A stretch of DNA of 64,000 bases. Source: Agromyces sp. 3263. Lineage in GTDB: Bacteria > Actinomycetota > Actinomycetes > Actinomycetales > Microbacteriaceae. Positions 1-12,251 of this stretch are shown here, in pieces. The notes under the pieces were generated by a model. The model was not told where the DNA came from and did not search any database. It worked only from the letters and a program-made list of their open reading frames with translations. Made by a program: the position numbers and the translations under genes. The stretch is from positions 682,001 to 746,000 of the forward strand of contig NZ_JAVDUV010000002.1 in assembly GCF_031456545.1 (NCBI RefSeq). Reading direction: 5' to 3'. Position 1 is the stretch's first letter. Each line of letters begins with the position of its first letter.

Positions 1-126
1 CCGCGACCAGCCACCTGAGGAATGCCCGCCGGATCAGCATGCCCACAGCGTAACGCCGTGGGCCTGCGCGCGGGCCGGGTGTTCACTCAGGGCGGACCCG
101 GCAGAATGGTCTCGGAGAGGATGAGC

Positions 127-918: not shown

Positions 919-1269
919 TCATCCGTCGAGCTCGACCTCGATCATGCCGCCGACGATGCGCGTGCGGTACGTGCGGAGCGCCAGCGCCGCGTCGGTGAAG
1001 CACTCGCCGGTGCCGAGGTCGTAGACCTCCTTGTGCAGCGGCGAGGCGATCGTCGGTCGGTCGCCCCGGGAACCGACGATCCCGCGCGCCATGACGGGTG
1101 CGCCCGTGTGCGGGTCGTAGTGGTCGACGGCGTACACCTCGTCGCCGGCGAGCCGGACCAGGGCGACCTGTCGTGCGCCGAGCAGGGCCACCTCACCCCA
1201 GCCGGGTTCGAGGTCGTCGACCTCGCACGTGCGCTCCCAGGTGGTCGTCATCTCGATCGTCGGCGGCAT
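919..1269 (-). CDS. nirD: Nitrite reductase small subunit NirD
   Basis: A 116-aa protein of the NirD branch of the Rieske-like fold. The stretch DPHTGAPVMARGIVG followed by ASPLHKEVYDLGTGEC matches NirD. This branch normally lacks the Cys/His pairs that bind a Rieske cluster, and they are absent here too, so this is not decay. It partners NirB in NADH-dependent reduction of nitrite to ammonium in the cytosol. The start at 1269 has AGGAG 5 nt upstream. Unusually, nirD does not follow nirB but is transcribed divergently from it, across a 199-bp control region. Confidence 0.9.
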   Translation of the reverse strand: MPPTIEMTTTWERTCEVDDLEPGWGEVALLGARQVALVRLAGDEVYAVDHYDPHTGAPVMARGIVGSRGDRPTIASPLHKEVYDLGTGECFTDAALALRTYRTRIVGGMIEVELDG

Positions 1270-1292: not shown

Positions 1293-1370
1293 CGACGCTA
1301 CGTTCGGGGTGTTTCGCCCACGCCCACGAGGTGTTTCACCGAGGTGAAACCCGCCTCACATCGCGGTGAG
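1293..1370 (-). promoter_or_regulatory. nirD promoter with phased GlnR-like half-sites
   Basis: Read on the minus strand, 5-mers recur at an exact 11-bp period: CTCAC (1370), GTGAG (1359), TTCAC (1348), GAAAC (1337), an unconserved slot (1326) and GAAAC (1315). The last one reads GAAACAC and is followed by 8 nt and TAGCGTCG (1300-1293), whose TAGCGT fits a -10. The period and the GTNAC-N6-GNAAC flavour match GlnR boxes described in actinomycetes. The half-site copies are mostly 4/5 matches. Regulator identity is inference. Confidence 0.6.
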
Positions 1371-1397
1371 GCGAACGTGCGTTCGGGTGCGGATGCG

Positions 1398-1442
1398 GTT
1401 ACCACGACGTAACAGGGCCGAAACCCCCCGGCCGTACGCTCG
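1398..1442 (+). promoter_or_regulatory. nirB promoter with GlnR-type box
   Basis: GTTAC-N6-GTAAC-N6-GAAAC lies at 1398, 1409 and 1420, three half-sites exactly 11 bp apart. The first two are a perfect match to GTNAC-N6-GNAAC. GAAACCC is followed by 8 nt and TACGCTCG (1435-1442), giving the same spacing as the nirD, narK and chelatase promoters. TACGCT is the likely -10, with an RBS (GGAGG) and the nirB ATG at 1469 downstream. Confidence 0.65.
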
Positions 1443-1468
1443 CCATCAATCGAGCCACGGAGGCAGCC

Positions 1469-4081
1469 ATGACCGAGACCCCCCACGCCACTCCGGGCGT
1501 GCACGACGTCCTCATCGTCGGCGGCGGACCGGCCGCGCACCGACTCGCCGACAGCCTGCACGCCCGCGACGGGGAGCGCACCCTTCGAGTGACCGTCGTC
1601 GGCGAGGAGGCGCACCGGCCCTACGACCGCGTCGCGTTGAGCACCAGACTCGCGGATGCCGCGACCGACCTCACGCTCGAGCCGACCCGCATGTGGGACG
1701 AGGGGCACACCCGGCTCGTCACCGGCGAGCGCGTGACGGCCATCGACGCCTCCGCCGGCACCGCGACCACCTCGGCCGGCACGCTGCTGCGCTGGGACGA
1801 GCTCGTCCTCGCCACCGGGTCGAGTGCGCCCGTCCCCGACCTCCCCGGCTCCTCCCACGCTCGCGTGTACCGCACTGTCGACGACGTCGACGCGCTCGTC
1901 GCCGAGACCCGCGACCTCGCGGCTCGTCACGGCCGACCCGCGCAGGTCGTCGTCGCGGGCGGCGGCCTGCTCGGCCTCGAGGCGGCCGGCGGGCTCGCCA
2001 AGCTCGGCGCGCACACCGCCGTCGTGCACTCGGGCGGCTGGCTCATGTCGGCGCAGCTGGACGAGGGCGCCGGTCGTGCACTCGGACGGATCATCGCCGC
2101 GCAGGGCATCGGCCTGCACCTCGGCGCTCGCCCGTCGGCCGTGGTCGTCGAGGACGACGCGGTCACCGCCGTGGAGCTCACCAACGGCCGGCGCATCGAC
2201 TGCGACCTCATCGTCTTCGCCATCGGCATCAGCCCTCGCGACGAACTCGCCCGCGACCTCGGGCTCGAGCTCGGGCCGCGCGGCGGCGTCGCCATCGACA
2301 CGGCGTGCGCGGCATCCGCACCGCATATCTGGGCGATCGGCGAGGTGGCGAGCTTCGAGGGCAGATGCACGGGGCTCGTCGCGCCGGCCAACGCGATGGC
2401 CGAGGTGGTCGCCGACCGGCTGCTCGGCGGTGCGGCCGAGTTCACGAGCGTCGACGACGCGACGAAGCTGAAGCTGTCGGGCGTGGACGTCGCGAGCTTC
2501 GGCGACGCGCTCGCGCGAACGGAGCAGGCGCTCGAGATCGTCTACGCCGATCCGGCCCGCGGGCTCTACCAGAAGCTCGTGATGACTGACGACGCGAAGA
2601 CGCTCCTCGGCGGCATCTTCGTCGGCGACGCGTCGCCGTACGCGTCGCTGCGGCCGCTGCTCGGCACCCAGCTGTCGAGTGAGCCGGCCGCCTACCTCTC
2701 GGCGTCGGGCATGGAGGCGCCAGCCGGCGATGAGCTGCCCGCGGGCGCCCTCGTGTGCGCGTGCAACAACGTGAGCGCGGGAACCATCCGCGACGCCGTC
2801 GCCGGTGGCCACGCCGACCACGTCGAGGCCTGCACCGACCTCGGCGAGCTGAAGGCCTGCACCCGCGCCGGGACGCAGTGCGGTTCGTGCGTGCCGCTCG
2901 TGAAGAAGCTCCTCGAGTCGGAGCTCACGAAGGCCGGCATCACGCCCTCGCGGGCGCTCTGCGAGCACTTCGAGCTCTCACGCCAGGAGCTGTTCGAGTC
3001 GATCCGGGTGCTCGAGCTCACCTCGTTCGACGAGATCGTCGCGCGCCTCGGCAGTGGGCGCGGGTGCGACGTCTGCAAGCCCGTCGTCGGGTCGATCCTC
3101 GCCACCCAGCACGGGTCGTACATCCTCGACGGCGGCCGTGGCAGCCTCCAGGACACGAACGACCGCGCCATGGCCAACATGCAGAAGGACGGCACCTACT
3201 CGGTCGTGCCGCGCATCCCCGCCGGCGAGATCACCCCGCAGAAGCTCGCGGTGATCGCCCAGGTCGCCACCGACTTCGGCCTCTATACGAAGATCACCGG
3301 CGGCCAGCGCATCGACCTGTTCGGGGCGCGGCTCGATCAGCTCCCCGACATCTGGAAGGTGCTCGTCGACGCCGGCTTCGAGTCGGGCCAGGCGTATGGC
3401 AAGGCGCTCCGCAACGTGAAGAGCTGCGTGGGCTCGACGTGGTGCCGCTACGGCGTGCAGGACTCCGTCGCCATGGCCGTGCAGCTGGAGCTCCGCTACC
3501 GCGGCCTCCGTTCACCGCACAAGCTGAAATTCGGCGTCTCGGGATGCGCTCGCGAATGCGCCGAGGCCCGCGCCAAGGACGTCGGCGTCATCGCGACCGA
3601 CCAGGGCTGGAACATGTACGTGGGCGGCAACGGCGGGTTCCAGCCGGCGCACGCGCAGCTGCTCGCCGGGGACCTCGACGACGAGACGCTGCTGCGCTAC
3701 ATCGACCGCTACCTCATGTACTACATCCGCACGGCCGACCGCCTGCAGCGCACCGCACGCTGGATCGAGGATGTGGACGGCGGGCTCGACCACGTGCGCG
3801 ACGTCGTCGTGAACGACTCGCTGGGCCTTGCCGAGGAACTCGAGCAGGCCATGGCCCGGCACGTCGACACCTACGAGGACGAGTGGGCGGCGACCCTCGC
3901 CGACCCCGACCGGCTCCGTCGCTTCCGGTCGTTCGTGAACGCCCCGAACACGCCCGACCCCTCCATCGCGCGGGTGCCGGAGCGCGACCAGTTCCGGCCC
4001 GCCACCGCCGAGGAACGGGAGCGCGGCGAGGCCGTGCTCGTGGCCGGGACGACCATCCCCGTGCGGGGAGCCGACGCATGA
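1469..4081 (+). CDS. nirB: Nitrite reductase (NADH) large subunit NirB
   Basis: An 870-aa siroheme enzyme that reduces nitrite to ammonium. An N-terminal FAD/NAD(P) oxidoreductase carries GGGPAA near residue 18 and AGGGLLGLEAA near 165. A BFD-like [2Fe-2S] region follows (CACNN near 430, CGSC near 475), then a second Cys pair (GCDVC near 530). The C-terminal sulfite/nitrite reductase core has the four cluster ligands in CVGSTWC (about 650) and GCAREC (about 693). The ATG has GGAGG 6 nt upstream. It ends in an ATGA overlap with cobA, so the siroheme enzyme and its cofactor gene are translationally coupled. Confidence 0.96.
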   Translation: MTETPHATPGVHDVLIVGGGPAAHRLADSLHARDGERTLRVTVVGEEAHRPYDRVALSTRLADAATDLTLEPTRMWDEGHTRLVTGERVTAIDASAGTATTSAGTLLRWDELVLATGSSAPVPDLPGSSHARVYRTVDDVDALVAETRDLAARHGRPAQVVVAGGGLLGLEAAGGLAKLGAHTAVVHSGGWLMSAQLDEGAGRALGRIIAAQGIGLHLGARPSAVVVEDDAVTAVELTNGRRIDCDLIVFAIGISPRDELARDLGLELGPRGGVAIDTACAASAPHIWAIGEVASFEGRCTGLVAPANAMAEVVADRLLGGAAEFTSVDDATKLKLSGVDVASFGDALARTEQALEIVYADPARGLYQKLVMTDDAKTLLGGIFVGDASPYASLRPLLGTQLSSEPAAYLSASGMEAPAGDELPAGALVCACNNVSAGTIRDAVAGGHADHVEACTDLGELKACTRAGTQCGSCVPLVKKLLESELTKAGITPSRALCEHFELSRQELFESIRVLELTSFDEIVARLGSGRGCDVCKPVVGSILATQHGSYILDGGRGSLQDTNDRAMANMQKDGTYSVVPRIPAGEITPQKLAVIAQVATDFGLYTKITGGQRIDLFGARLDQLPDIWKVLVDAGFESGQAYGKALRNVKSCVGSTWCRYGVQDSVAMAVQLELRYRGLRSPHKLKFGVSGCARECAEARAKDVGVIATDQGWNMYVGGNGGFQPAHAQLLAGDLDDETLLRYIDRYLMYYIRTADRLQRTARWIEDVDGGLDHVRDVVVNDSLGLAEELEQAMARHVDTYEDEWAATLADPDRLRRFRSFVNAPNTPDPSIARVPERDQFRPATAEERERGEAVLVAGTTIPVRGADA

Positions 4082-4854
4082 CCGGCCGGGTGACCCTCGT
4101 CGGCGGCGGCCCGGGGCGTGCCGACCTCCTCACCGTGGCCGCCGTGCGCGCGCTCGGCGCGGCCGACGTGGTGCTCTACGACCGCCTCGCGCCGTACGAG
4201 GCGCTCGCGGAGTACGCGCCCACCGCCGAGCTGGTGGACGTCGGCAAGCGGCCCGGCCACCACGCCATCCCGCAGCACGAGATCGAGGCGCTCCTCGTCG
4301 AGCACGCGCTCGCCGGGCGGCACGCCGTGCGCCTGAAGGGCGGCGACCCCTACGTGCTCGGCCGCGGCAGCGAGGAGGTGCTCGCCTGCCATCGTGCCGG
4401 GGTGTCCGTCGAGGTCATCCCCGGCGTCACGAGCGCCGTCTCGGTGCCCGGGGCCGCGGGCATCCCCCTCACCCACCGTGGCCTCAGCCATCTCTTCACG
4501 GTCGTGTCGGGTCACGCGCCGCTCACGGCGACGGAACTCGAGCACCTCGCCGGGCTCGGCGGCACCATCGTCGTGCTCATGGGCGTCAACTCCCTTCCGT
4601 CGCTCACGGCCGGACTCGCACGGTACGGCATGCAGGCCGACATGCCCGTGGCCATCGTCGAACGCGGCTTCCGTCCCGACCAGCGCACGACCATCGGCTC
4701 GCTGACCGACATCGTCGTGGCCGCCGGCCGCGCCGGCGTCACCTCGCCGGCCGTCGTGGTCGTCGGCGAGGTCGTGCGCCTCGCGCACGACGGCGACGCG
4801 AGCGCCGCCGAGCTCATGGAACGCGCCGCCGGATTCGCGGCGGTCGCCTCATGA
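4078..4854 (+). CDS. cobA: Uroporphyrinogen-III C-methyltransferase
   Basis: A SAM-dependent methyltransferase of 258 aa that converts uroporphyrinogen III to precorrin-2, the first committed step to siroheme. Family motifs are GGGPGRADLLT near the N-terminus, LKGGDPYVLGRG near residue 85, and PGVTSAVSVPGAAGIPLTHRG. It is the stand-alone SUMT form, without the CysG dehydrogenase/chelatase half. It overlaps nirB and nnaR by ATGA at both ends, so its job here is to supply NirB with siroheme. Confidence 0.93.
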   Translation: MTGRVTLVGGGPGRADLLTVAAVRALGAADVVLYDRLAPYEALAEYAPTAELVDVGKRPGHHAIPQHEIEALLVEHALAGRHAVRLKGGDPYVLGRGSEEVLACHRAGVSVEVIPGVTSAVSVPGAAGIPLTHRGLSHLFTVVSGHAPLTATELEHLAGLGGTIVVLMGVNSLPSLTAGLARYGMQADMPVAIVERGFRPDQRTTIGSLTDIVVAAGRAGVTSPAVVVVGEVVRLAHDGDASAAELMERAAGFAAVAS

Positions 4855-5981
4855 CCGACGTCATCGACTGCGCGCCGGGCTTCCGGCCCGATCAGCTCGA
4901 GGGCTTCCGCATCGGCGTGACAAGCGACCGACGCTCCGCCGACCTCATCGACGCGCTGGCGAGGCGGGGCGCCCAGGTGCTGCACGCGCCGACGCTGCGC
5001 ATGGCCAACGCCGTCTCCGACGATCCGGTCATCGCCGACACGCGCGCGATCATCGCGGCCCGACCCGACGTGCTCCTGGCCACGACGGCCTACGGCGTGC
5101 GGCGATGGTTCGAGGTGGCGGATGCCGCGGGCCTCGGTGAGGACCTCGTCGACGCACTGTCCGACACGGCGATCCTCGTGCGCGGGCCGAAGGCGCGCGG
5201 AGGCATCCGGGCCGCCGGACTCAACGACGAGGGCATGAGCGCCGAGGAGACGACGGAGTCGCTCATCGACGAGGTGCTCGCGACCCACCCGCCGGGCCTG
5301 ACCGTCGCCGTGCAACTGCACGGGTTCCTGAACCCGTCGCAGCTCGACCGCCTGCGCGACGCCCACGACACCGTGCTCACGGTCGAGCCGTACCGGTGGA
5401 TCGAAACGGACGAGGACGACGACCGGGTCGACCGGCTCATCGACGCGACCTGCTCCGGAGGCCTGGACTGCATCACGTTCACGAGCGCCCCCGCCGTGCA
5501 CGCGCTGTTCAGCGCCGCCGAGGCGCGGGGGCGCTACGACGACCTCGTCGACGCCATGTGCGGCCCCGTCGTGGCGGCCGCGGTCGGCCCCGTGACCGCT
5601 GCGCCGCTCGTGGCGGCGGGCATCGTGCCCATCCAGCCGGAGCGCTATCGCATGGGCGCCCTCATCCGCCTCGTCTGCGAGCACCTCGAGTCGACGCGCG
5701 TCATCCGCCTGGAAACCCGGCACGGGGCGCTCGCGCTGCGCGGTTCGGTCGTCGACGTCGCCGATCGCCGCGTCTCGCTCGCTCCGGTCGCGCTCATGAT
5801 CCTGCGCGCGCTCGTGCAGGCGCGGGGCTCGGTGGTCGGGCGGGAGCGGCTGGCCGCGGGGCTGCCGGGCACGAACGACGAGCACGCCCTCGAGGTGGCG
5901 CTCAGCCGCCTGCGCCAGACGATCGGGGTGCCGGGGCTGATCGCCACCGTGGTCAAGCGCGGCTACCGGATCGACGTGTGA
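4851..5981 (+). CDS. nnaR: HemD-like/winged-helix nitrate-nitrite regulator (NnaR type)
   Basis: A 376-aa fusion. Residues about 1-260 resemble uroporphyrinogen-III synthase (HemD). The last 90 or so are an OmpR-type winged helix (LAPVALMILRALVQ, then HALEVALSRLRQTIG, ending VVKRGYRIDV). The same architecture defines NnaR, known in Streptomyces and Mycobacterium as a co-activator of nitrate/nitrite assimilation genes together with GlnR. Its place in the nirB operon supports that role. Whether the HemD half still makes uroporphyrinogen III or only senses a tetrapyrrole cannot be told from sequence. Confidence 0.87.
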   Translation: MTDVIDCAPGFRPDQLEGFRIGVTSDRRSADLIDALARRGAQVLHAPTLRMANAVSDDPVIADTRAIIAARPDVLLATTAYGVRRWFEVADAAGLGEDLVDALSDTAILVRGPKARGGIRAAGLNDEGMSAEETTESLIDEVLATHPPGLTVAVQLHGFLNPSQLDRLRDAHDTVLTVEPYRWIETDEDDDRVDRLIDATCSGGLDCITFTSAPAVHALFSAAEARGRYDDLVDAMCGPVVAAAVGPVTAAPLVAAGIVPIQPERYRMGALIRLVCEHLESTRVIRLETRHGALALRGSVVDVADRRVSLAPVALMILRALVQARGSVVGRERLAAGLPGTNDEHALEVALSRLRQTIGVPGLIATVVKRGYRIDV

Positions 5982-6010
5982 CCACGACCTCACACGACGG
6001 CGCGGCCAGG

Positions 6011-6077
6011 GTGAGCAGGTGGAGACGCAGGGTTTACGACCGGACCGATCCGCGGAAACACCACCCCCATAGCGTCG
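6011..6077 (+). promoter_or_regulatory. narK promoter with phased GlnR-like half-sites
   Basis: GTGAG (6011), GAGAC (6022), TTTAC (6033), an unconserved slot (6044) and GAAAC (6055) are spaced by 11 bp. The last reads GAAACAC, then 8 nt, then TAGCGTCG (6070-6077). The 3' part is identical in spacing and -10 sequence to the nirD and chelatase promoters. The ATG of narK lies 44 nt further on. The upstream half-sites are individually weak, and it is the phase that supports them. Confidence 0.55.
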
Positions 6078-6121
6078 GCAGCACGAGTTCGACCCCGTGA
6101 CCGACACCCCCGGAGGCACCG

Positions 6122-7558
6122 ATGACGCAGACCGTGAGCAGCGCTCCCCCGCAGGCCGCCGCCCCCCTGGCCGCTGATCCGAGCACCACCTCGACCACCA
6201 GCACGACCCCGACCACCGCCGCTCCGCCGCTGGCGACCCGGCCCGGCCGCTGGATCGACCACTGGAACCCCGAGGACACTGCGCAGTGGGAGTCGGTCGG
6301 CCGGGGCATCGCCCGTCGCAACCTCCGCTGGTCGATCTTCGCCGAGTTCCTCGGGTTCGTGGTCTGGCAGCTCTGGTCGATCGTCGCCGTCGCGCTGCCC
6401 AAGGCCGGCTTCGACCTCGACACCGGCCAGGTGTTCTGGCTCATCTCGATCCCGAGCCTCGTGGGCGCGACGCTGCGCATCCCGTACTCGTTCCTCGTGC
6501 CCCGCTTCGGCGGTCGCAACTGGACCATCGTCTCGGCCGGCCTGCTCCTCCTGCCCACGATCGCCCTCGCGGTGTGCGTGTCCAACCCCGAGACGCCGTT
6601 CGGGGTGCTGCTCCTGGTGGCGGCGCTGGCCGGCTTCGGCGGCGGCAACTTCGCGAGCTCCATGTCGAACATCACGTTCTTCTACCCGCAGCGCGAGAAG
6701 GGCTGGGCGCTCGGCCTGAACGCCGCAGGCGGCAACCTCGGGGCATCCGTGGCCCAGTTCATCGTGCCGATCGTCATCACGATCGGCGCGGGCGCGACCC
6801 TCAACGTGCCCCTCGCCGGCATCATCTGGGTGCCCCTGATCCTCGTGGCCATGTTCGGCGCGTACCGGTACATGGACAACCTCTCGAGCGCGAAGGCGGA
6901 CTTCGCCGGCTCCGCCGCAGCGCTCCGCGAGCCGCACCTCTGGATGCTGTCGCTCCTGTACATCGGCACATTCGGGTCGTTCATCGGCTTCGCGAGCGTC
7001 TTCCCGAAGCTCATCGCCGACCAGTTCCCCGAGTTCTCCGCGATCAGCGTGGGCGGGGCGTCCGTCTCACTCGCCTTCCTCGGCGCCCTCGTCGGGTCCC
7101 TCGCCCGCCCCTACGGCGGCAGGCTCTCCGACCGATTCGGCGGTGCCCGGATCACGATGGCCGCGTTCGCGGTCATGGGCACCGTGACCCTGGCCGTGCT
7201 GCTGACGCTCCCGGTGGCGAGCTTCTGGCTGTTCCTCGGCCTCTTCCTGCTGCTGTTCGCCGCGGCAGGCATCGGCAACGGCTCCACCTACCGCATGGTC
7301 CCCGTGGTCTTCGCGGTGCGCGGCGGCGGCGCCGGCGACGTGTCCACCCAGCGCAAGGCCGCGGCCGCCCTCGGCCTCATCTCCGCGATCGGCGCGTACG
7401 GCGGCTTCCTCATCCCGCAAGCGCTCAACCTCTCCTTCCAGTCCACCGGCGGCTACGCCGCCGCGTTCCTCGGCTTCGTCGCCGCCTACGTCGTGCTCCT
7501 CGTGCTCACCTACGTCGTCTACGTGCGGTCGAGCCGCCTCCGCGACCACAAGATCTGA
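6122..7558 (+). CDS. narK: Nitrate/nitrite MFS transporter NarK
   Basis: A 478-aa polytopic inner-membrane protein of the nitrate/nitrite porter branch of the MFS, with about 12 hydrophobic segments. The nitrate signature is present twice in modified form: AGFGGGNFASSMSNITFFYP near residue 175-195 and the Gly-rich AAAGIGNGSTYRM in the second half. A Thr/Pro/Ala-rich N-terminal tail of about 45 residues precedes the first membrane segment. GGAGG stands 6 nt before the ATG. It opens the narK-nasC-nasB unit and so supplies nitrate to NasC or exports nitrite. Confidence 0.94.
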   Translation: MTQTVSSAPPQAAAPLAADPSTTSTTSTTPTTAAPPLATRPGRWIDHWNPEDTAQWESVGRGIARRNLRWSIFAEFLGFVVWQLWSIVAVALPKAGFDLDTGQVFWLISIPSLVGATLRIPYSFLVPRFGGRNWTIVSAGLLLLPTIALAVCVSNPETPFGVLLLVAALAGFGGGNFASSMSNITFFYPQREKGWALGLNAAGGNLGASVAQFIVPIVITIGAGATLNVPLAGIIWVPLILVAMFGAYRYMDNLSSAKADFAGSAAALREPHLWMLSLLYIGTFGSFIGFASVFPKLIADQFPEFSAISVGGASVSLAFLGALVGSLARPYGGRLSDRFGGARITMAAFAVMGTVTLAVLLTLPVASFWLFLGLFLLLFAAAGIGNGSTYRMVPVVFAVRGGGAGDVSTQRKAAAALGLISAIGAYGGFLIPQALNLSFQSTGGYAAAFLGFVAAYVVLLVLTYVVYVRSSRLRDHKI

Positions 7559-7569
7559 ATCGAGTCCGG

Positions 7570-9699
7570 ATGCCCCGTCCCGCCGCCCCCTCGCACTGCC
7601 CGTACTGCGCGCTGCAGTGCGCGATGACCCTCACGCCGACGGATGCCGCGGACGACGCGACCGCTGCGACGCCCGTGACCGTCACCGGCCGCGACTTCCC
7701 CACGAACCGCGGTGGCCTGTGCAAGAAGGGGTGGACGTCGGCGGAGCTGCTCCGGGCGCCCTCCCGCCTCGGCGTCCCGCTCCTGCGGGGCGCCGACGGC
7801 GCGCTGCACGAGGCGACGTGGGAGGAGGCGCTCGACTTCGTCGCGGCGCGGCTGCGCGGCATCCGCTCGGCGCACGGCGCGGACGCCGTGGGTGTCTTCG
7901 GCGGCGGCGGGCTCACGAACGAGAAGGCGTACCTGCTCGGCAAGTTCGCACGGCTCGCGCTCGGCACGAGCCGCATCGACTACAACGGCCGGTACTGCAT
8001 GTCGTCGGCGGCGGCGGCCGGGAATCGCGCGTTCGGCGTCGATCGCGGCCTGCCGTTCCCGCTCGAGGACCTCGACGGGGCGCGTACCGTGCTCCTGCTC
8101 GGCACGAACGTGGCCGAGACGATGCCGCCGTTCATCGGGCACCTCGCGGGCGCGCAGGCCGCGGGCGGGCTCGTCGTCGTCGACCCCCGGCGCACGGCGA
8201 CCGCACGCCTCACCGACGACGGGAAGGGCCTGCACGTGCAGCCGGCGCCGGGCACCGACCTCGCCCTGCTGCTCGGCCTCATCCACATCGTCATCGCCGA
8301 GCGCCTCATCGACGCCGACTACGTGGCTGCCCGCACGACCGGGTTCGAGTCGCTGCGCCGCAGCGTCGCGTCGTGGTGGCCGGCACGCGTGCAGTCGGTG
8401 ACCGGCGTCGCGGCGCTCACCATGAAGCGGCTCGCGCGGCGCCTCGCGTCGGGCGACGGCACGTACATCCTCACCGGCCGCGGCGTGGAGCAGCACGTCG
8501 ACGGCACCGACACCGCGACGGCCGCGATCAACCTTGCACTGCTTCTGGGCCTCCCGGGCCGGGCGGGCAGCGGCTACGGCACCCTCACCGGCCAGGGCAA
8601 CGGGCAGGGCGGCCGCGAGCACGGGCAGAAGTGCGACCAGCTCCCGGGCTACCGGAAGATCACCGATCCCGACGCGCGTGCCCACGTGGCGCGCGTGTGG
8701 GGCGTCGCGCCCGAGGACATCCCCGGACCAGGGGTGCCGGCGGTGGAGCTGCTGCAATCGCTCGGGCGTCCGGGCGGTGTGCGCGCGCTGCTCGTGCACG
8801 GCTCCAACCTCGTCGTCTCGTCGCCGAACGTGGAACGCGTGCGCCAGGGCATCGCGCGGCTCGACCTCCTCGTGGTGTGCGACTTCTTCCTCTCCGAGAC
8901 GGCGGCGCTCGCCGATGTCGTGCTCCCCGTCACGCAGTGGGCCGAGGAGGAGGGGACCATGACGAACCTCGAGGGCCGGGTCATCCGTCGCCGCCGTGCC
9001 ATCACCCCGCCGGCGGGGGTACGCGACGAGCTGTGGATCCTCTCGGAGCTCGCCCGCAGGCTGGAGTGCGACGCCGCATTCGACACCGATCCCGAGCGGG
9101 TGTTCGATGAGCTCCGCGCCGCGTCGGAGGGCGGCATCGCCGACTACTCCGGCATCGACTACGCGATGCTCGACCGCGGCGAGGCGGCGTACTGGCCGAT
9201 GCCGCGGGGCACCGTGGGCACGCCGCGCCTCTTCGCCGACCGATTCGCGCACCCCGACGGCCTCGCCCGTCTCGTGGCCGTGTCGGTGCGCGAGTCCGCG
9301 CGGCCGCGTCCGGCGGACGGCGAACTCACCCTCGTCACGGGACGGCTCCTCGAGCACTACCAGAGCGGCGCCCAGACCCGGCGGGTGCCCGAGCTGCTCG
9401 GCGCCCAGCCCGAGGCGTTCGCCTCGCTGCATCCGGCGACCGCACTGCGCCTCGGCATCGACGACGGCGATCCGCTCGAGCTCACCAACCCGCGCGGCAC
9501 GATGCGCTGCCGGGCGAGGCTCACGACCGACATCCGACCCGACGACGTGTTCCTCCCGTTCCACTATGGCGACGCGCAGGCGGCCAACCTGCTGACGAGC
9601 GACGCGGTCGACCCGATCTCGTCGATGCCCGAGTTCAAGACCAACGTCGTGCGCGTCACCCGCGTCGCGAGCCGCACGGAAGCCGGGGTCCCCGCATGA
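7570..9699 (+). CDS. nasC: Assimilatory nitrate reductase catalytic subunit
   Basis: A 709-aa molybdopterin oxidoreductase (Mo-bisMGD) that reduces nitrate to nitrite in the cytosol. The N-terminal [4Fe-4S] ligands are in CPYCALQC (residues 10-17) and GGLCKKGW (about 54). GRGVEQH and GQGNGQGGREHG are typical of Nas/Nap-type enzymes, and a molydopterin dinucleotide-binding domain closes the C-terminus. The ATG at 7570 gives a compact N-terminus starting just before the cluster motif; the open frame continues far upstream, but only as an antisense/offset shadow of narK. It ends in ATGA shared with nasB. Confidence 0.93.
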   Translation: MPRPAAPSHCPYCALQCAMTLTPTDAADDATAATPVTVTGRDFPTNRGGLCKKGWTSAELLRAPSRLGVPLLRGADGALHEATWEEALDFVAARLRGIRSAHGADAVGVFGGGGLTNEKAYLLGKFARLALGTSRIDYNGRYCMSSAAAAGNRAFGVDRGLPFPLEDLDGARTVLLLGTNVAETMPPFIGHLAGAQAAGGLVVVDPRRTATARLTDDGKGLHVQPAPGTDLALLLGLIHIVIAERLIDADYVAARTTGFESLRRSVASWWPARVQSVTGVAALTMKRLARRLASGDGTYILTGRGVEQHVDGTDTATAAINLALLLGLPGRAGSGYGTLTGQGNGQGGREHGQKCDQLPGYRKITDPDARAHVARVWGVAPEDIPGPGVPAVELLQSLGRPGGVRALLVHGSNLVVSSPNVERVRQGIARLDLLVVCDFFLSETAALADVVLPVTQWAEEEGTMTNLEGRVIRRRRAITPPAGVRDELWILSELARRLECDAAFDTDPERVFDELRAASEGGIADYSGIDYAMLDRGEAAYWPMPRGTVGTPRLFADRFAHPDGLARLVAVSVRESARPRPADGELTLVTGRLLEHYQSGAQTRRVPELLGAQPEAFASLHPATALRLGIDDGDPLELTNPRGTMRCRARLTTDIRPDDVFLPFHYGDAQAANLLTSDAVDPISSMPEFKTNVVRVTRVASRTEAGVPA

Positions 9700-11303
9700 G
9701 CGCTCTGAGGATCGTCCTCGTCGGATACGGCCCCGTCGGCGCCCGCTTCGTCGAGGAGCTGCTGCCGTCGGTCGAGCGCGGCGACGTCGCACTCACGGTC
9801 GTCGGCGGCGAGCAGACGGAGGCCTACAACCGCGTGCTCGTCGCCGAGTACGCCGTCGGCAACACCGACCTCGACGCGATGCTCGTCGGCGATGCCGCCG
9901 CCGTCGAGGCGGCGGGTGCCCGCATGCTCCTGGGCGTCGCGGCGACCTCGATCGATCGGGCGTCGCGAACGGTGCGGCTCGGCACCGGCGAGGAGCTGCC
10001 CTACGACCGTCTCGTGCTGGCCACCGGATCGCGTGCGAACGTGCCGACCCTCGACGGTGTGGAGCGGCACCGCCGCGACCTGTCCTCGCTCGAGAAGTAC
10101 GCGCGGCAGCTCGTGGCGCGCGACGACGAACTGCCCGAGGGCATCACGGCGCTCCGCGACCTCGCCGACGCCGGGCGGGTGCTCGAGACCGTGCGCGCTC
10201 GTCGCCGCATCATCGTCCTGGGCGCCGGCGTGCTCGGCCTCGAGCTCGCCCTCGCCGCGGCCCACGCCGGCGCGCAGGTCTGCGTCGTGCACCACGGCCC
10301 GCACCCCATGCCGCGCAACCTCGACCGCGGCGGCGGGCAGGTGCTGCGCGCAGCGCTGCGGCGCACGGGCATCACCGTCATCGCGCACAGCCGTGCGGAG
10401 GCGGTCGCGTTCCGCACGGACGAGAATGGCCGGCGCCGGTTCGACATGCTCGTCACCGCCGACGGCAAGCAGCTGCGCGGCGACCTGCTCGTCCTCTCCT
10501 GCGGCGTGAGCCCCCGCAACGAGCTCGCCACCCTGGCGGGCCTGCGCACCGCCGTCGGCGTCGTCGTGAACGAGCGGCTGCAGTCGTGGAGCGACCCCGA
10601 CGTGTACGCGATCGGCGACTGCGCCCAGGTCACGCCGCGCACCGAGGAGCTCGCGGGCCAGCGCGTGCTGCCCGGCGCGCCGTCGGGGCTCATCGGACCC
10701 GGCTGGCGCCAGGCGTCGTGGCTCGCCGCCGCGTTCACCGACGAAGCCGCCGGCCGCGGGGCGGATGCCGCGGTGCCGGCCGAGCGAGACCCGATCGTCA
10801 TGCTCAAGGCCGAGCACATCGACGTGGTCGCCGTCGGCGAGATCGCGGCCGACCCGTGGGACGACGACGCGCTGCATCCGCGCGGCCGCGTCTCGCAGTG
10901 GGCCGATCCCGAGCACCTCCGCTACGTGAAGATGGTGACCGAGGACGGCGTGCTGACGGGCTTCGTGAGCGTCGGGATGCCGCGCACCGCCGCCGAGCTC
11001 ACGCTCCTGTTCGAGCGGCGTGGCGAGCTGCCCGCCGACCGCTCCCTGCTGCTGCGGTTCGACGGTCCCGACTACGACCCCGCGGCCGACACCGACGCGT
11101 TCGCGCCCACGAGCACGGTCTGCTGGTGCAACGGCGTCACCGTCGGGCGCATCGAGGAGTCGGCAGCGTGCGGCAACACCACCGTCGAGTGCGTGGGCCG
11201 GGACACGCGTGCCGGCACCGGGTGCGGGGGCTGCAAGGGCCGCATCGCCGACGTGCTCGCCCGGGCCGCCGAGGCGGACGGCACGCCGAGTCTCACCGCC
11301 TGA
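9696..11303 (+). CDS. nasB: Nitrate reductase electron-transfer flavoprotein
   Basis: A 535-aa FAD-dependent NAD(P)H oxidoreductase with a GYGPVGARF dinucleotide motif at the N-terminus and a second (LGAGVLGLELA) near residue 175. A C-terminal BFD-like [2Fe-2S] domain has CWCNG and GTGCGGCKG. It resembles the NirB flavoprotein half without the siroheme core, and it very likely passes electrons from NAD(P)H to NasC, whose stop overlaps its start (ATGA). It converges on the chelatase gene with 71 bp between stops. Confidence 0.88.
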   Translation: MSALRIVLVGYGPVGARFVEELLPSVERGDVALTVVGGEQTEAYNRVLVAEYAVGNTDLDAMLVGDAAAVEAAGARMLLGVAATSIDRASRTVRLGTGEELPYDRLVLATGSRANVPTLDGVERHRRDLSSLEKYARQLVARDDELPEGITALRDLADAGRVLETVRARRRIIVLGAGVLGLELALAAAHAGAQVCVVHHGPHPMPRNLDRGGGQVLRAALRRTGITVIAHSRAEAVAFRTDENGRRRFDMLVTADGKQLRGDLLVLSCGVSPRNELATLAGLRTAVGVVVNERLQSWSDPDVYAIGDCAQVTPRTEELAGQRVLPGAPSGLIGPGWRQASWLAAAFTDEAAGRGADAAVPAERDPIVMLKAEHIDVVAVGEIAADPWDDDALHPRGRVSQWADPEHLRYVKMVTEDGVLTGFVSVGMPRTAAELTLLFERRGELPADRSLLLRFDGPDYDPAADTDAFAPTSTVCWCNGVTVGRIEESAACGNTTVECVGRDTRAGTGCGGCKGRIADVLARAAEADGTPSLTA

Positions 11304-11374
11304 GGTCGCCGATGGGCGGCCCCCTCGTCGCGCGCTCTCCGAAGGGTCGGCGTCACCGCCGCCATCCGTACGCC

Positions 11375-12136
11375 TCAGGCGCGCTCGCGGCGGTCGGCAT
11401 CGACCTGCGCGTACCGCTCGAGGACCAACTCGACGAGCTCGCGCGGCGCAGGGCGGTCGGGCAGCAGCAGCGGATCGGCGATGACGTCGCCGCCGGCCGC
11501 GGTCGCCGCGTCGTAGAACGTCCCGGGCGCCAGGAGATACGGGCCCACGACGATGCGCGAGCCGGGATGCACCTCGCGGATCATCTCGATGGCGTCGGGC
11601 AGTCGCGGGATCGCGGCGGCGATGAACCCCACCGTCACGGGCCGGCCGAGTCGCTGGCCGAGCCGGCGCGCGGTCTCGAAGCACTCGCGCACCGCTCGGG
11701 GGTCGTTCGAACCCGCGGCGGCGAGGAGCACGGCGTCGCCCTCGGCGAGGCCGAGGGCCGCGAGCCGATCGGCGAGCACCGAGACGATGCGCTCATCGGG
11801 TCCGAGCTCTGGGGCGAGCTGCGCGCCCCCGCCGATGCGGTCGAGGCCGAGCGACAGGCCGGTGCGCACGTGGAAGCCCGCCGAGAGCACCAGCGGCACG
11901 ATGACCGCGTCGGGTTCGGCGTCGGCCGCGAGAGCGGCCGCGACATCCGCGTTGCTGGCATCGACGAAGCTGATGGACACGCCGACGTCGGGCCGCTCCG
12001 AGGCGACCGCGTCGACGAGTCGGATCACGGCCTCGCGATTCGCGGCCGACGGCGCCCCGTGGGTGACGGCGACGAGACGGAGCGGATGGGGGCCCAGCCG
12101 ATCATCGGGGAGGCCCGCACCACTCGACCCGACCAT
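11375..12136 (-). CDS. Sirohydrochlorin chelatase-like protein (CbiX/SirB family)
   Basis: A 253-aa protein with two repeats of the CbiX chelatase fold. The first begins LVAVTHGAPSAANRE, where His is the likely metal ligand; the second contains VGPYLLAPGTFYD. The family inserts Fe2+ (siroheme) or Co2+ into sirohydrochlorin. Next to nirB-cobA, iron insertion for siroheme is the obvious role. The start at 12136 has no well-spaced RBS (GGAG abuts the ATG), so a slightly different start is possible. Its promoter duplicates that of nirD. Confidence 0.85.
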   Translation of the reverse strand: MVGSSGAGLPDDRLGPHPLRLVAVTHGAPSAANREAVIRLVDAVASERPDVGVSISFVDASNADVAAALAADAEPDAVIVPLVLSAGFHVRTGLSLGLDRIGGGAQLAPELGPDERIVSVLADRLAALGLAEGDAVLLAAAGSNDPRAVRECFETARRLGQRLGRPVTVGFIAAAIPRLPDAIEMIREVHPGSRIVVGPYLLAPGTFYDAATAAGGDVIADPLLLPDRPAPRELVELVLERYAQVDADRRERA

Positions 12137-12184
12137 CTCCGAACCCCGCGCTCTCCGGCGGAGTCCGCTGTCGGCCGCCGGTTT

Positions 12185-12251
12185 CGACGCTATGCACGGC
12201 GTGTTTCGCGGACGGCTCCCGAGTGTTTCCGGGAGGTGAAGACTGCCTCAC
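12185..12251 (-). promoter_or_regulatory. Chelatase promoter, near-copy of the nirD control element
   Basis: On the minus strand GTGAG (12251), TTCAC (12240), GAAAC (12229) and GAAACAC (12207) keep the 11/22-bp phase seen at nirD. They are followed by 8 nt and TAGCGTCG (12192-12185). The 51 bp at 12201-12251 match 1309-1359 at 37 positions with no gap. The gene start lies 48 nt beyond the -10. This ties the chelatase to the nitrate regulon. Confidence 0.6.

Follow-up and report, generated by a model that had tools for sequence, protein, structure and literature searches.

How can four transcripts, which run in both directions through one nitrate-assimilation cluster, be opened together? The question is raised by a window of 64,000 nucleotides (nt) from the genome of Agromyces sp. 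3263, in which nirD (minus strand) is followed by nirB, a tetrapyrrole methylase gene and nnaR (plus), then by narK, a molybdopterin oxidoreductase gene and a NirB-like reductase gene (plus), and finally by a chelatase gene (minus), and in which nirD, nirB, narK and the chelatase gene are each preceded by a site of the same design. It is highly probable in our judgment that all four belong to one nitrogen regulon as promoters dependent on an activator, where GlnR would sit at a fixed distance from the -10 hexamer and NnaR would act as a co-activator. Nitrogen regulation in actinobacteria depends chiefly on GlnR, whose short and degenerate sites make prediction of its regulon from sequence uncertain.

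The first thing to be asked is whether the four sites are there by chance. An earlier note on this DNA had described the motif GAAACNC-N8-TANNNTCG, with exactly 8 nt between the two boxes, and all four sites are found where the note placed them (nirD, minus 1315-1293; chelatase, minus 12207-12185; narK, plus 6055-6077; nirB, plus 1420-1442). The note had also called for a search of the full genome, and had named recurrence at a similar rate elsewhere as the result that would speak against a regulon. In the 4.07 Mb of the whole genome the exact motif has four matches, which are precisely the nirD, nirB, narK and chelatase promoters, and the pattern read backwards has none. Within the window, the same motif with at most one mismatch is found four times (mean over shuffles 0.19) and GAAAC-N10-TANNNT likewise four times (0.02), neither number of four being reached in any of 100 shuffles. 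Chance as the origin of the four sites is thus ruled out by the genome-wide search and the shuffles.

Is the spacing also kept in other organisms? At 43 loci with NnaR relatives, the 260 bp upstream of each recognised gene were searched for GAAAC-N(d)-TANNNT, d being allowed to range from 3 to 19. Upstream of 131 nirB, nirD, narK and chelatase genes, d is 10 in 105 of 106 matches: 31 in 34 nirB genes, 30 in 35 nirD genes (which also give the single match with d=17), 30 in 36 narK genes and 14 in 26 chelatase genes. At the same loci the pattern was not found upstream of nnaR (0/42) or of the NirB-like reductase gene, here called nasB (0/32). It is to be noted that about half of the 43 loci are from Agromyces and the counts are thus not independent; 40 of the 105 promoters come from loci other than L011-L030 and L053, which are Agromyces loci, although a single locus of A. 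seonyuensis (L051) is still among those of the 40. If the G that opens the last GAAAC is taken as position 0, as is done here for all promoter elements, the columns conserved in these 40 promoters are -66..-61, -45..-40, -33, -22, 0 and +15. The spacers between the boxes have diverged across relatives and the boxes are kept, GAAAC and the -10 hexamer being invariant in the nitrate set by the very pattern with which it was selected. As for the chelatase gene, in the window and in 13 Agromyces loci it is placed at the distal end of the cluster and has a separate promoter like that of nirD. In 8 of the 26 relatives (L033-L036, L039, L041, L047, L052) it lies directly downstream of nirD, a position which may explain the misses there, and upstream of the chelatase genes of L013, L024, L029 and L051 the motif was not found in the 260 bp scanned.

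The rule is wider than the earlier note claimed and is not limited to these four promoters: the same gap of 10 nt is found at GlnR-type promoters across the class. In the source genome glnA carries GTAAC-N6-GAAAC-N6-GTCAT-N6-GAAAC-N10-TAGCGT and amtB carries GTAAC-N6-GAAAC-N17-GAAAC-N10-GAGACT, and half-sites of the GTNAC/GNAAC type with a period of 11 bp are present upstream of nitrogen genes at the four promoters, glnA and amtB. The note had advised looking for glnA and amtB among genomic hits, and indeed GNAAC-N17-GAAAC-N10-NANNNT has four matches in the genome, at glnA, amtB, nirD and the chelatase gene, against one match of the backward control. The pattern GNAAC-N(8-12)-TANNNT was not found in the stretches read upstream of a second glutamine-synthetase-like gene, glnR and amtB, of which amtB carries GAGACT where TANNNT is expected. 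Discrimination is weak for GTNAC-N6-GNAAC-N10-TANNNT with one mismatch, which gives 8 matches in the source genome against 4 backward; two of the 8 belong to the nitrogen genes nirB and glnA, and a third precedes a GNAT gene. When the stretches upstream of glnA in 90 of 118 class genomes are scanned for GNAAC-N(d)-TANNNT, d is 10 in 38 of 54 matches, each from a different genome, and in 38 of 45 if a phased upstream half-site is required. Placing the gene starts by alignment and counting the glnA and nirB stretches again left the numbers unchanged. The rule extends to glnA and amtB, and to read the four sites as GlnR-activated promoters with a set distance to the -10 is well supported.

What, then, brings RNA polymerase to such sites? 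The -10 hexamers are of the housekeeping TANNNT type. A TTGACA-like -35 element at 15-19 bp was not found at any of the four promoters, the best match being 2/6 in all of them. Among the nitrate promoters of relatives, 80 of 105 score 2/6 or less, as do about half of the random places taken from these loci; at glnA this holds for 17 of 38 promoters, the other 21 reaching 3 or 4 of 6, so the absence of a -35 is clearer at the nitrate promoters than at glnA. If the hexamer is taken as -12..-7 of the transcript, the last GAAAC would cover about -27..-23 and the position of the preceding half-site about -38..-34, which is where a -35 element would be. A start predicted 6-8 nt past the hexamer would fit the nirD genes of some relatives: in 8 of 30 promoters (five from Microbacterium, two from metagenome-assembled genomes of actinomycetes and one from Pseudolysinimonas) an ATG stands exactly 7 nt past the hexamer, and it opens the nirD frame in 8/8, which is consistent with leaderless transcripts.

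Further upstream, nirD and the chelatase gene share GTGAG at -44, TTCAC at -33 and GAAAC at -22, and narK has CTCAC at -66, GTGAG at -44 and TTTAC at -22, the last being represented as [GT]TNAC in 29 of 30 narK promoters of relatives. The earlier note took all such elements as GlnR half-sites phased by 11 bp. The phasing holds for the half-sites at multiples of 11, including GTTAC at -22 and GTAAC at -11 of nirB, but NnaR accounts better for those at -44 and -66, and the outer elements of nirB, at -65 and -43, are off the multiples of 11. The second element conserved in the 40 promoters is CTCACA at -66..-61 with TGTGAG at -45..-40, and because these letters match the published NnaR motif, a reading as NnaR arms has replaced that as GlnR half-sites. 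The palindrome of narK matches CTCAC[A/C]-N13-16-GTGAG exactly; that shared by nirB and nirD, CTCAC-N17-GTGCG, has one altered base in its right arm and is read from both sides. The reading as a four-promoter regulon whose last half-site keeps a constant distance to the -10 is supported, its grammar being amended to a composite of GlnR sites and an NnaR-type palindrome. The box GTTAC-N6-GTAAC of nirB (1398-1413) is itself palindromic and can also be read as half-sites at -98/-87 of nirD.

The composite spacing was looked for in 148 class genomes as GTGAG-N(35-43)-GAAAC-N(8-12)-TANNNT, that is, over 45 spacing cells, and 132 rows were obtained. Fifty-eight rows were dropped as 23S-rRNA-like (recognised by eye), of which one tested representative falls at (43,8), and 11 more were dropped as coming from five genomes of 1.2-1.4 Mb, none of them lying in a cell of (38-40,10). 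The 63 rows kept fall at (39,10) in 18 cases, at (38,10) in 13 and at (40,10) in 4, and cells with any other second gap have at most 3 each. It is only this concentration, with two of the 45 cells holding 31 of the 63 rows, that makes the evidence for the composite. A site GTGAG-N38-GAAAC-N10-TACCTT recurs in the g22 genomes (G016, G050, G063, G086, G096, G106), and G016, G050, G063 and G086 have a second site type with N39, which ends in TAATTT.

Both regulators are encoded in the genome. Besides nnaR, there is an orthologue of GlnR with 61% identity, over residues 4-236, to S. coelicolor GlnR; the query sequence matches solved GlnR entries, the orthologue is its single match at E<=1e-40, and the next-best match in the genome has 35% identity. 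The inference of a GlnR-type regulator, made by the earlier note, gains from this orthologue and from the N10 gap at glnA and amtB and across genera, binding itself being a prediction. The sites, their spacing and conservation, the two regulator genes and the absence of a -35 may be put together as follows. GlnR protomers would line up head to tail on half-sites of 11 bp, with the last GAAAC 10 nt before the -10 hexamer, and GlnR would thereby occupy the place of the -35 and hold RNA polymerase on a bare -10; the rigid gap of 10 nt may be a requirement of the bridge between GlnR and polymerase. NnaR, product of the nirB operon, would bind CTCACA-N15-TGTGAG as a co-activator, with the last GlnR half-site 43-44 bp downstream of its inner arm, on about the same face of the helix, and at nirB/nirD one palindrome would serve both directions. 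Nitrogen shortage through GlnR and a cue of nitrate/nitrite or siroheme through NnaR would jointly open the predicted transcripts, namely nirD, nirB-sumT-nnaR, narK-nitrate reductase-nasB and the chelatase gene. As nnaR lies behind nirB, NnaR would probably reinforce its own expression. Most likely, GlnR replaces recognition of a -35 and NnaR is a co-activator at a fixed position. A bolder form, to which we lean by a little, would have one obligatory GlnR register throughout the class, in which the last b-site starts 15 nt before the -10 and replaces the -35, and a second obligatory register for NnaR at nitrate promoters, where its inner arm would stand 43-44 bp upstream of that b-site; NnaR, a tetramer of GlnR and polymerase would then make up one rigid composite complex.

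Several points weigh against these proposals. Binding by the two proteins, activation, transcription starts, extents of the operons and the cue of NnaR are all deduced from DNA letters. The strict N10 pattern was not found in 52 of the 90 glnA upstream stretches, and with the loose hexamer NANNNT there is no discrimination at glnA, d=8 (58) exceeding d=10 (42); the excess at d=8 may come from the hexamer window catching CAC of the next, internal half-site. At nirB the inner and outer arms are shifted by 1 bp (-43/-65), and at the chelatase gene the left arm at -66 was found neither in the window, which has the inner GTGAG only, nor in relatives (0/14). The backward control of the composite scan gave 70 matches, more than half of which (36) belong to the small-genome family f24, and the total of 132 rows, with 58 rRNA-like ones among them, does not greatly exceed this control and is thus no evidence by itself. 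Directly upstream of nirB, d=10 is found in 7/7 loci of the order and in 0/23 loci outside it (L074 offering 336 bp only). Because several non-order genomes have a second reductase gene upstream of nirB, the scan was extended further upstream in 20 of the 23 loci (two of these stretches being 1.2 and 1.8 kb long owing to contig ends, and one lying beside a paralogue on another contig), and a phased site with TANNNT (d 3-19) was found in only 6 of the 20. All 6 have d=10, and in a count by hand GTGAG or GTGCG stands at -44 in 4 of them and GTGAG at -43 in one. Lastly, MtrA and PhoP recognise boxes overlapping with those of GlnR (PMC6988585; for MtrA also PMC6277429; here and below, papers are cited for the parts of them covered), and GlnR is so nearly universal (115 of the 118 genomes of the class give a match at E<=1e-40) that presence and absence cannot separate it from MtrA.

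May it then be MtrA, or PhoP, that reads the 11-bp repeats or competes there as a repressor? In Streptomyces MtrA binds the GlnR boxes of glnA, glnII, nirB and ureA through a nearly identical motif (PMC6988585, PMC6277429), and other OmpR-type regulators are encoded in the source genome. However, the genomic pattern GNAAC-N17-GAAAC-N10-NANNNT matches only glnA, amtB, nirD and the chelatase gene, the published GlnR box has the same GAAAC b-site and the same a-b-a-b order as glnA (PMC10704036), and MtrA is described as a competitor at the GlnR sites of these genes, so we consider this reading unlikely. Another thought is that the promoters are alike through recent copying within the cluster and that the spacing is inheritance rather than a rule. 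The nirD and chelatase promoters do share the full layout -44/-33/-22/0, and a chelatase gene that once adjoined nirD, as it does in the eight loci above, may have moved away together with a duplicate of the nirD promoter; copying may be the origin of the chelatase promoter. As a full account recent copying is refuted by the same N10 at the unrelated glnA and amtB and in other orders; spacers have also diverged around kept boxes, and we give it very little weight. That NnaR alone matters and GAAAC belongs to the core promoter of an alternative sigma factor is the least credible of all, since, for all the invariance of GAAAC and -10 in the nitrate set and the restriction of strict GAAACNC-N8-TANNNTCG to four nitrate promoters, the upstream half-sites continue in 11-bp phase, the -10 is of housekeeping type, and glnA has GAAAC-N10-TAGCGT behind its a-b-a-b array with no NnaR palindrome seen in 160 nt.

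Features of the nitrate-assimilation cluster in the window (positions of the whole stretch; offsets in brackets relative to position 0, the first base of the last GAAAC)
Feature	Position	Strand	Remarks
nirD, nitrite reductase small subunit, first transcript	919..1269	-	TIGR02378 above cut-off, PF13806
-10 hexamer TAGCGT of nirD	1295..1300	-	10 nt past last GAAAC; without -35
Last putative GlnR half-site GAAAC of nirD (position 0)	1311..1315	-	
Putative GlnR half-sites TTCAC (-33), GAAAC (-22) of nirD	1333..1348	-	conserved in relatives
NnaR-type palindrome CTCAC-N17-GTGCG, nirB (-65/-43) and nirD (-44/-66)	1355..1381	.	fits published motif
Putative GlnR box GTTAC-N6-GTAAC of nirB (-22, -11)	1398..1413	+	
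Last putative GlnR half-site GAAAC of nirB	1420..1424	+	
-10 hexamer TACGCT of nirB	1435..1440	+	
nirB, nitrite reductase large subunit	1469..4081	+	TIGR02374, 931.8 bits
Tetrapyrrole methylase (sumT/cobA-like)	4078..4854	+	PF00590; 4-nt overlap with nirB and with nnaR
nnaR, HemD domain fused to OmpR-type winged-helix DNA-binding domain	4851..5981	+	PF02602 and PF00486, NF005568
NnaR-type palindrome CTCACAC-N15-GTGAG of narK (-66/-44)	5989..6015	+	fits published motif
GlnR-type half-site TTTAC of narK (-22)	6033..6037	+	
Last putative GlnR half-site GAAAC of narK	6055..6059	+	
-10 hexamer TAGCGT of narK	6070..6075	+	
narK, nitrate/nitrite transporter; heads narK - molybdopterin reductase - nasB run	6122..7558	+	PF07690
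Molybdopterin oxidoreductase	7570..9699	+	PF00384, PF01568, PF04879
NirB-like FAD/BFD reductase (nasB)	9696..11303	+	profile search; without this promoter type upstream
CbiX/SirB-type chelatase	11375..12136	-	PF01903
-10 hexamer TAGCGT of chelatase	12187..12192	-	
Last putative GlnR half-site GAAAC of chelatase	12203..12207	-	
Putative GlnR half-sites TTCAC (-33), GAAAC (-22) of chelatase	12225..12240	-	
NnaR-type half-site GTGAG (-44) of chelatase	12247..12251	-	without left arm

Among the genes themselves, nnaR is 93% identical to its best full-length matches, and the closest named relatives at the locus are Agromyces species. The narK product scores below the cut-offs of two profiles (NF011608, 368.2 bits against 836; TIGR00886, 297.3 bits against 311.7). 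From gene context the molybdopterin oxidoreductase is taken as the nitrate reductase, and the chelatase is supposed to serve the siroheme branch.

Can the proposed GlnR spacing point to targets outside nitrate assimilation? In 31 genomes of the genus, GAAAC-N6-GAAAC-N10-TANNNT has 41 matches in 26 genomes against none for the control. Ten of the matched loci were read: five sites precede nirB, four precede a gene for a GNAT acetyltransferase whose ATG stands 7 nt past the hexamer, and one precedes an ABC-transporter-like stretch. The source genome has the acetyltransferase site at C1:54718-54749, minus strand (L055), as GAAAC-N6-GAAAC-N10-TAGCAT before the gene (assigned by Pfam), again with the ATG 7 nt past the hexamer, and this arrangement is also found upstream of its relatives in four further genomes of the genus. 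The acetyltransferase gene is thus a candidate for a new GlnR target. The site at about 1501-1532 of L243, GAAAC-N6-GAAAC-N10-TATCGT, is very similar in four genomes of the genus, and the stretch downstream of it resembles ABC-transporter genes by eye. The fixed distance to the -10 makes a weak motif nearly unique, as the four matches in 4.07 Mb (glnA, amtB, nirD and the chelatase gene) illustrate, and if the registers are truly obligatory, spacing alone would suffice to predict the regulon and, with it, new targets like the leaderless acetyltransferase gene. The geometry of NnaR, GlnR and polymerase also becomes directly testable through insertions of 1 bp.

How do these promoters compare with known systems? 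The layout resembles that of the pho-box of E. coli, where PhoB, an activator of the OmpR family, occupies direct repeats of 11 bp in place of the -35, about 10 bp before the -10; regulator, box sequence and signal differ. Among the closest systems is the GlnR box of actinomycetes, gTnAc-n6-GaAAc-n6-GtnAC-n6-GAAAc in the published parts covered, with which the present sites share the half-site period of 11 bp, the GAAAC b-sites, the a-b-a-b array at glnA and the targets glnA, amtB, nirB and narK. Unlike this box, the nitrate promoters are gapped, having half-sites at -33, -22 and 0 or at -22 and 0 (at nirB -22, -11 and 0), and the last half-site is fixed 10 nt before the -10, whereas the parts covered of the literature give the spacing between half-sites. 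The structure of GlnR with polymerase is described as having four DNA-binding domains arranged head to tail and a tetramer of receiver domains that bridges to polymerase (PMC10704036). In M. tuberculosis, GlnR sites lie at -75 to +10 of mapped starts for 18 of 28 genes (PMC4950008), a broad range without a fixed register, yet a GlnR box over about -38 to -23, as would follow from the register here, is compatible with the sites of glnA1 (-37) and glnA2 (-30). The distance N10 is not stated in the parts covered of PMC10704036, PMC3662644, PMC3087709, PMC5826061, PMC4950008, PMC6277429, PMC11162112 and PMC6988585. Control of nitrate assimilation by GlnR and NnaR, the 11-bp box and a fairly conserved spacing between NnaR and GlnR sites in M. 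smegmatis are already known; what is sharper here is how exactly the register to the -10 is kept and how widely it holds in the class, points which may be printed elsewhere.

As for NnaR, it is reported to be a co-activator at nirB of S. coelicolor (cited in PMC10704036), it is co-regulator with GlnR at similar spacing in M. smegmatis, where its motif is ctCAC(a/c)-N16-(t/g)GTGag (PMC6277429), and the motif used for M. abscessus is CTCAC[A/C]-13..16-GTGAG (PMC11162112). The present cluster has in common with these three regulons a HemD-winged-helix regulator, CTCAC...GTGAG beside GlnR sites, and as targets nirB, narK and nitrite/nitrate genes; features of leaderless transcripts are shared with M. 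smegmatis, and a link to sirB with M. abscessus, where this gene is part of the operon. It differs in that CTCACA-N15-TGTGAG is one base shorter than the M. smegmatis motif, in that one palindrome serves the divergent nirB and nirD and the chelatase has a separate promoter with one arm, and in that nnaR lies behind nirB and a methylase gene.

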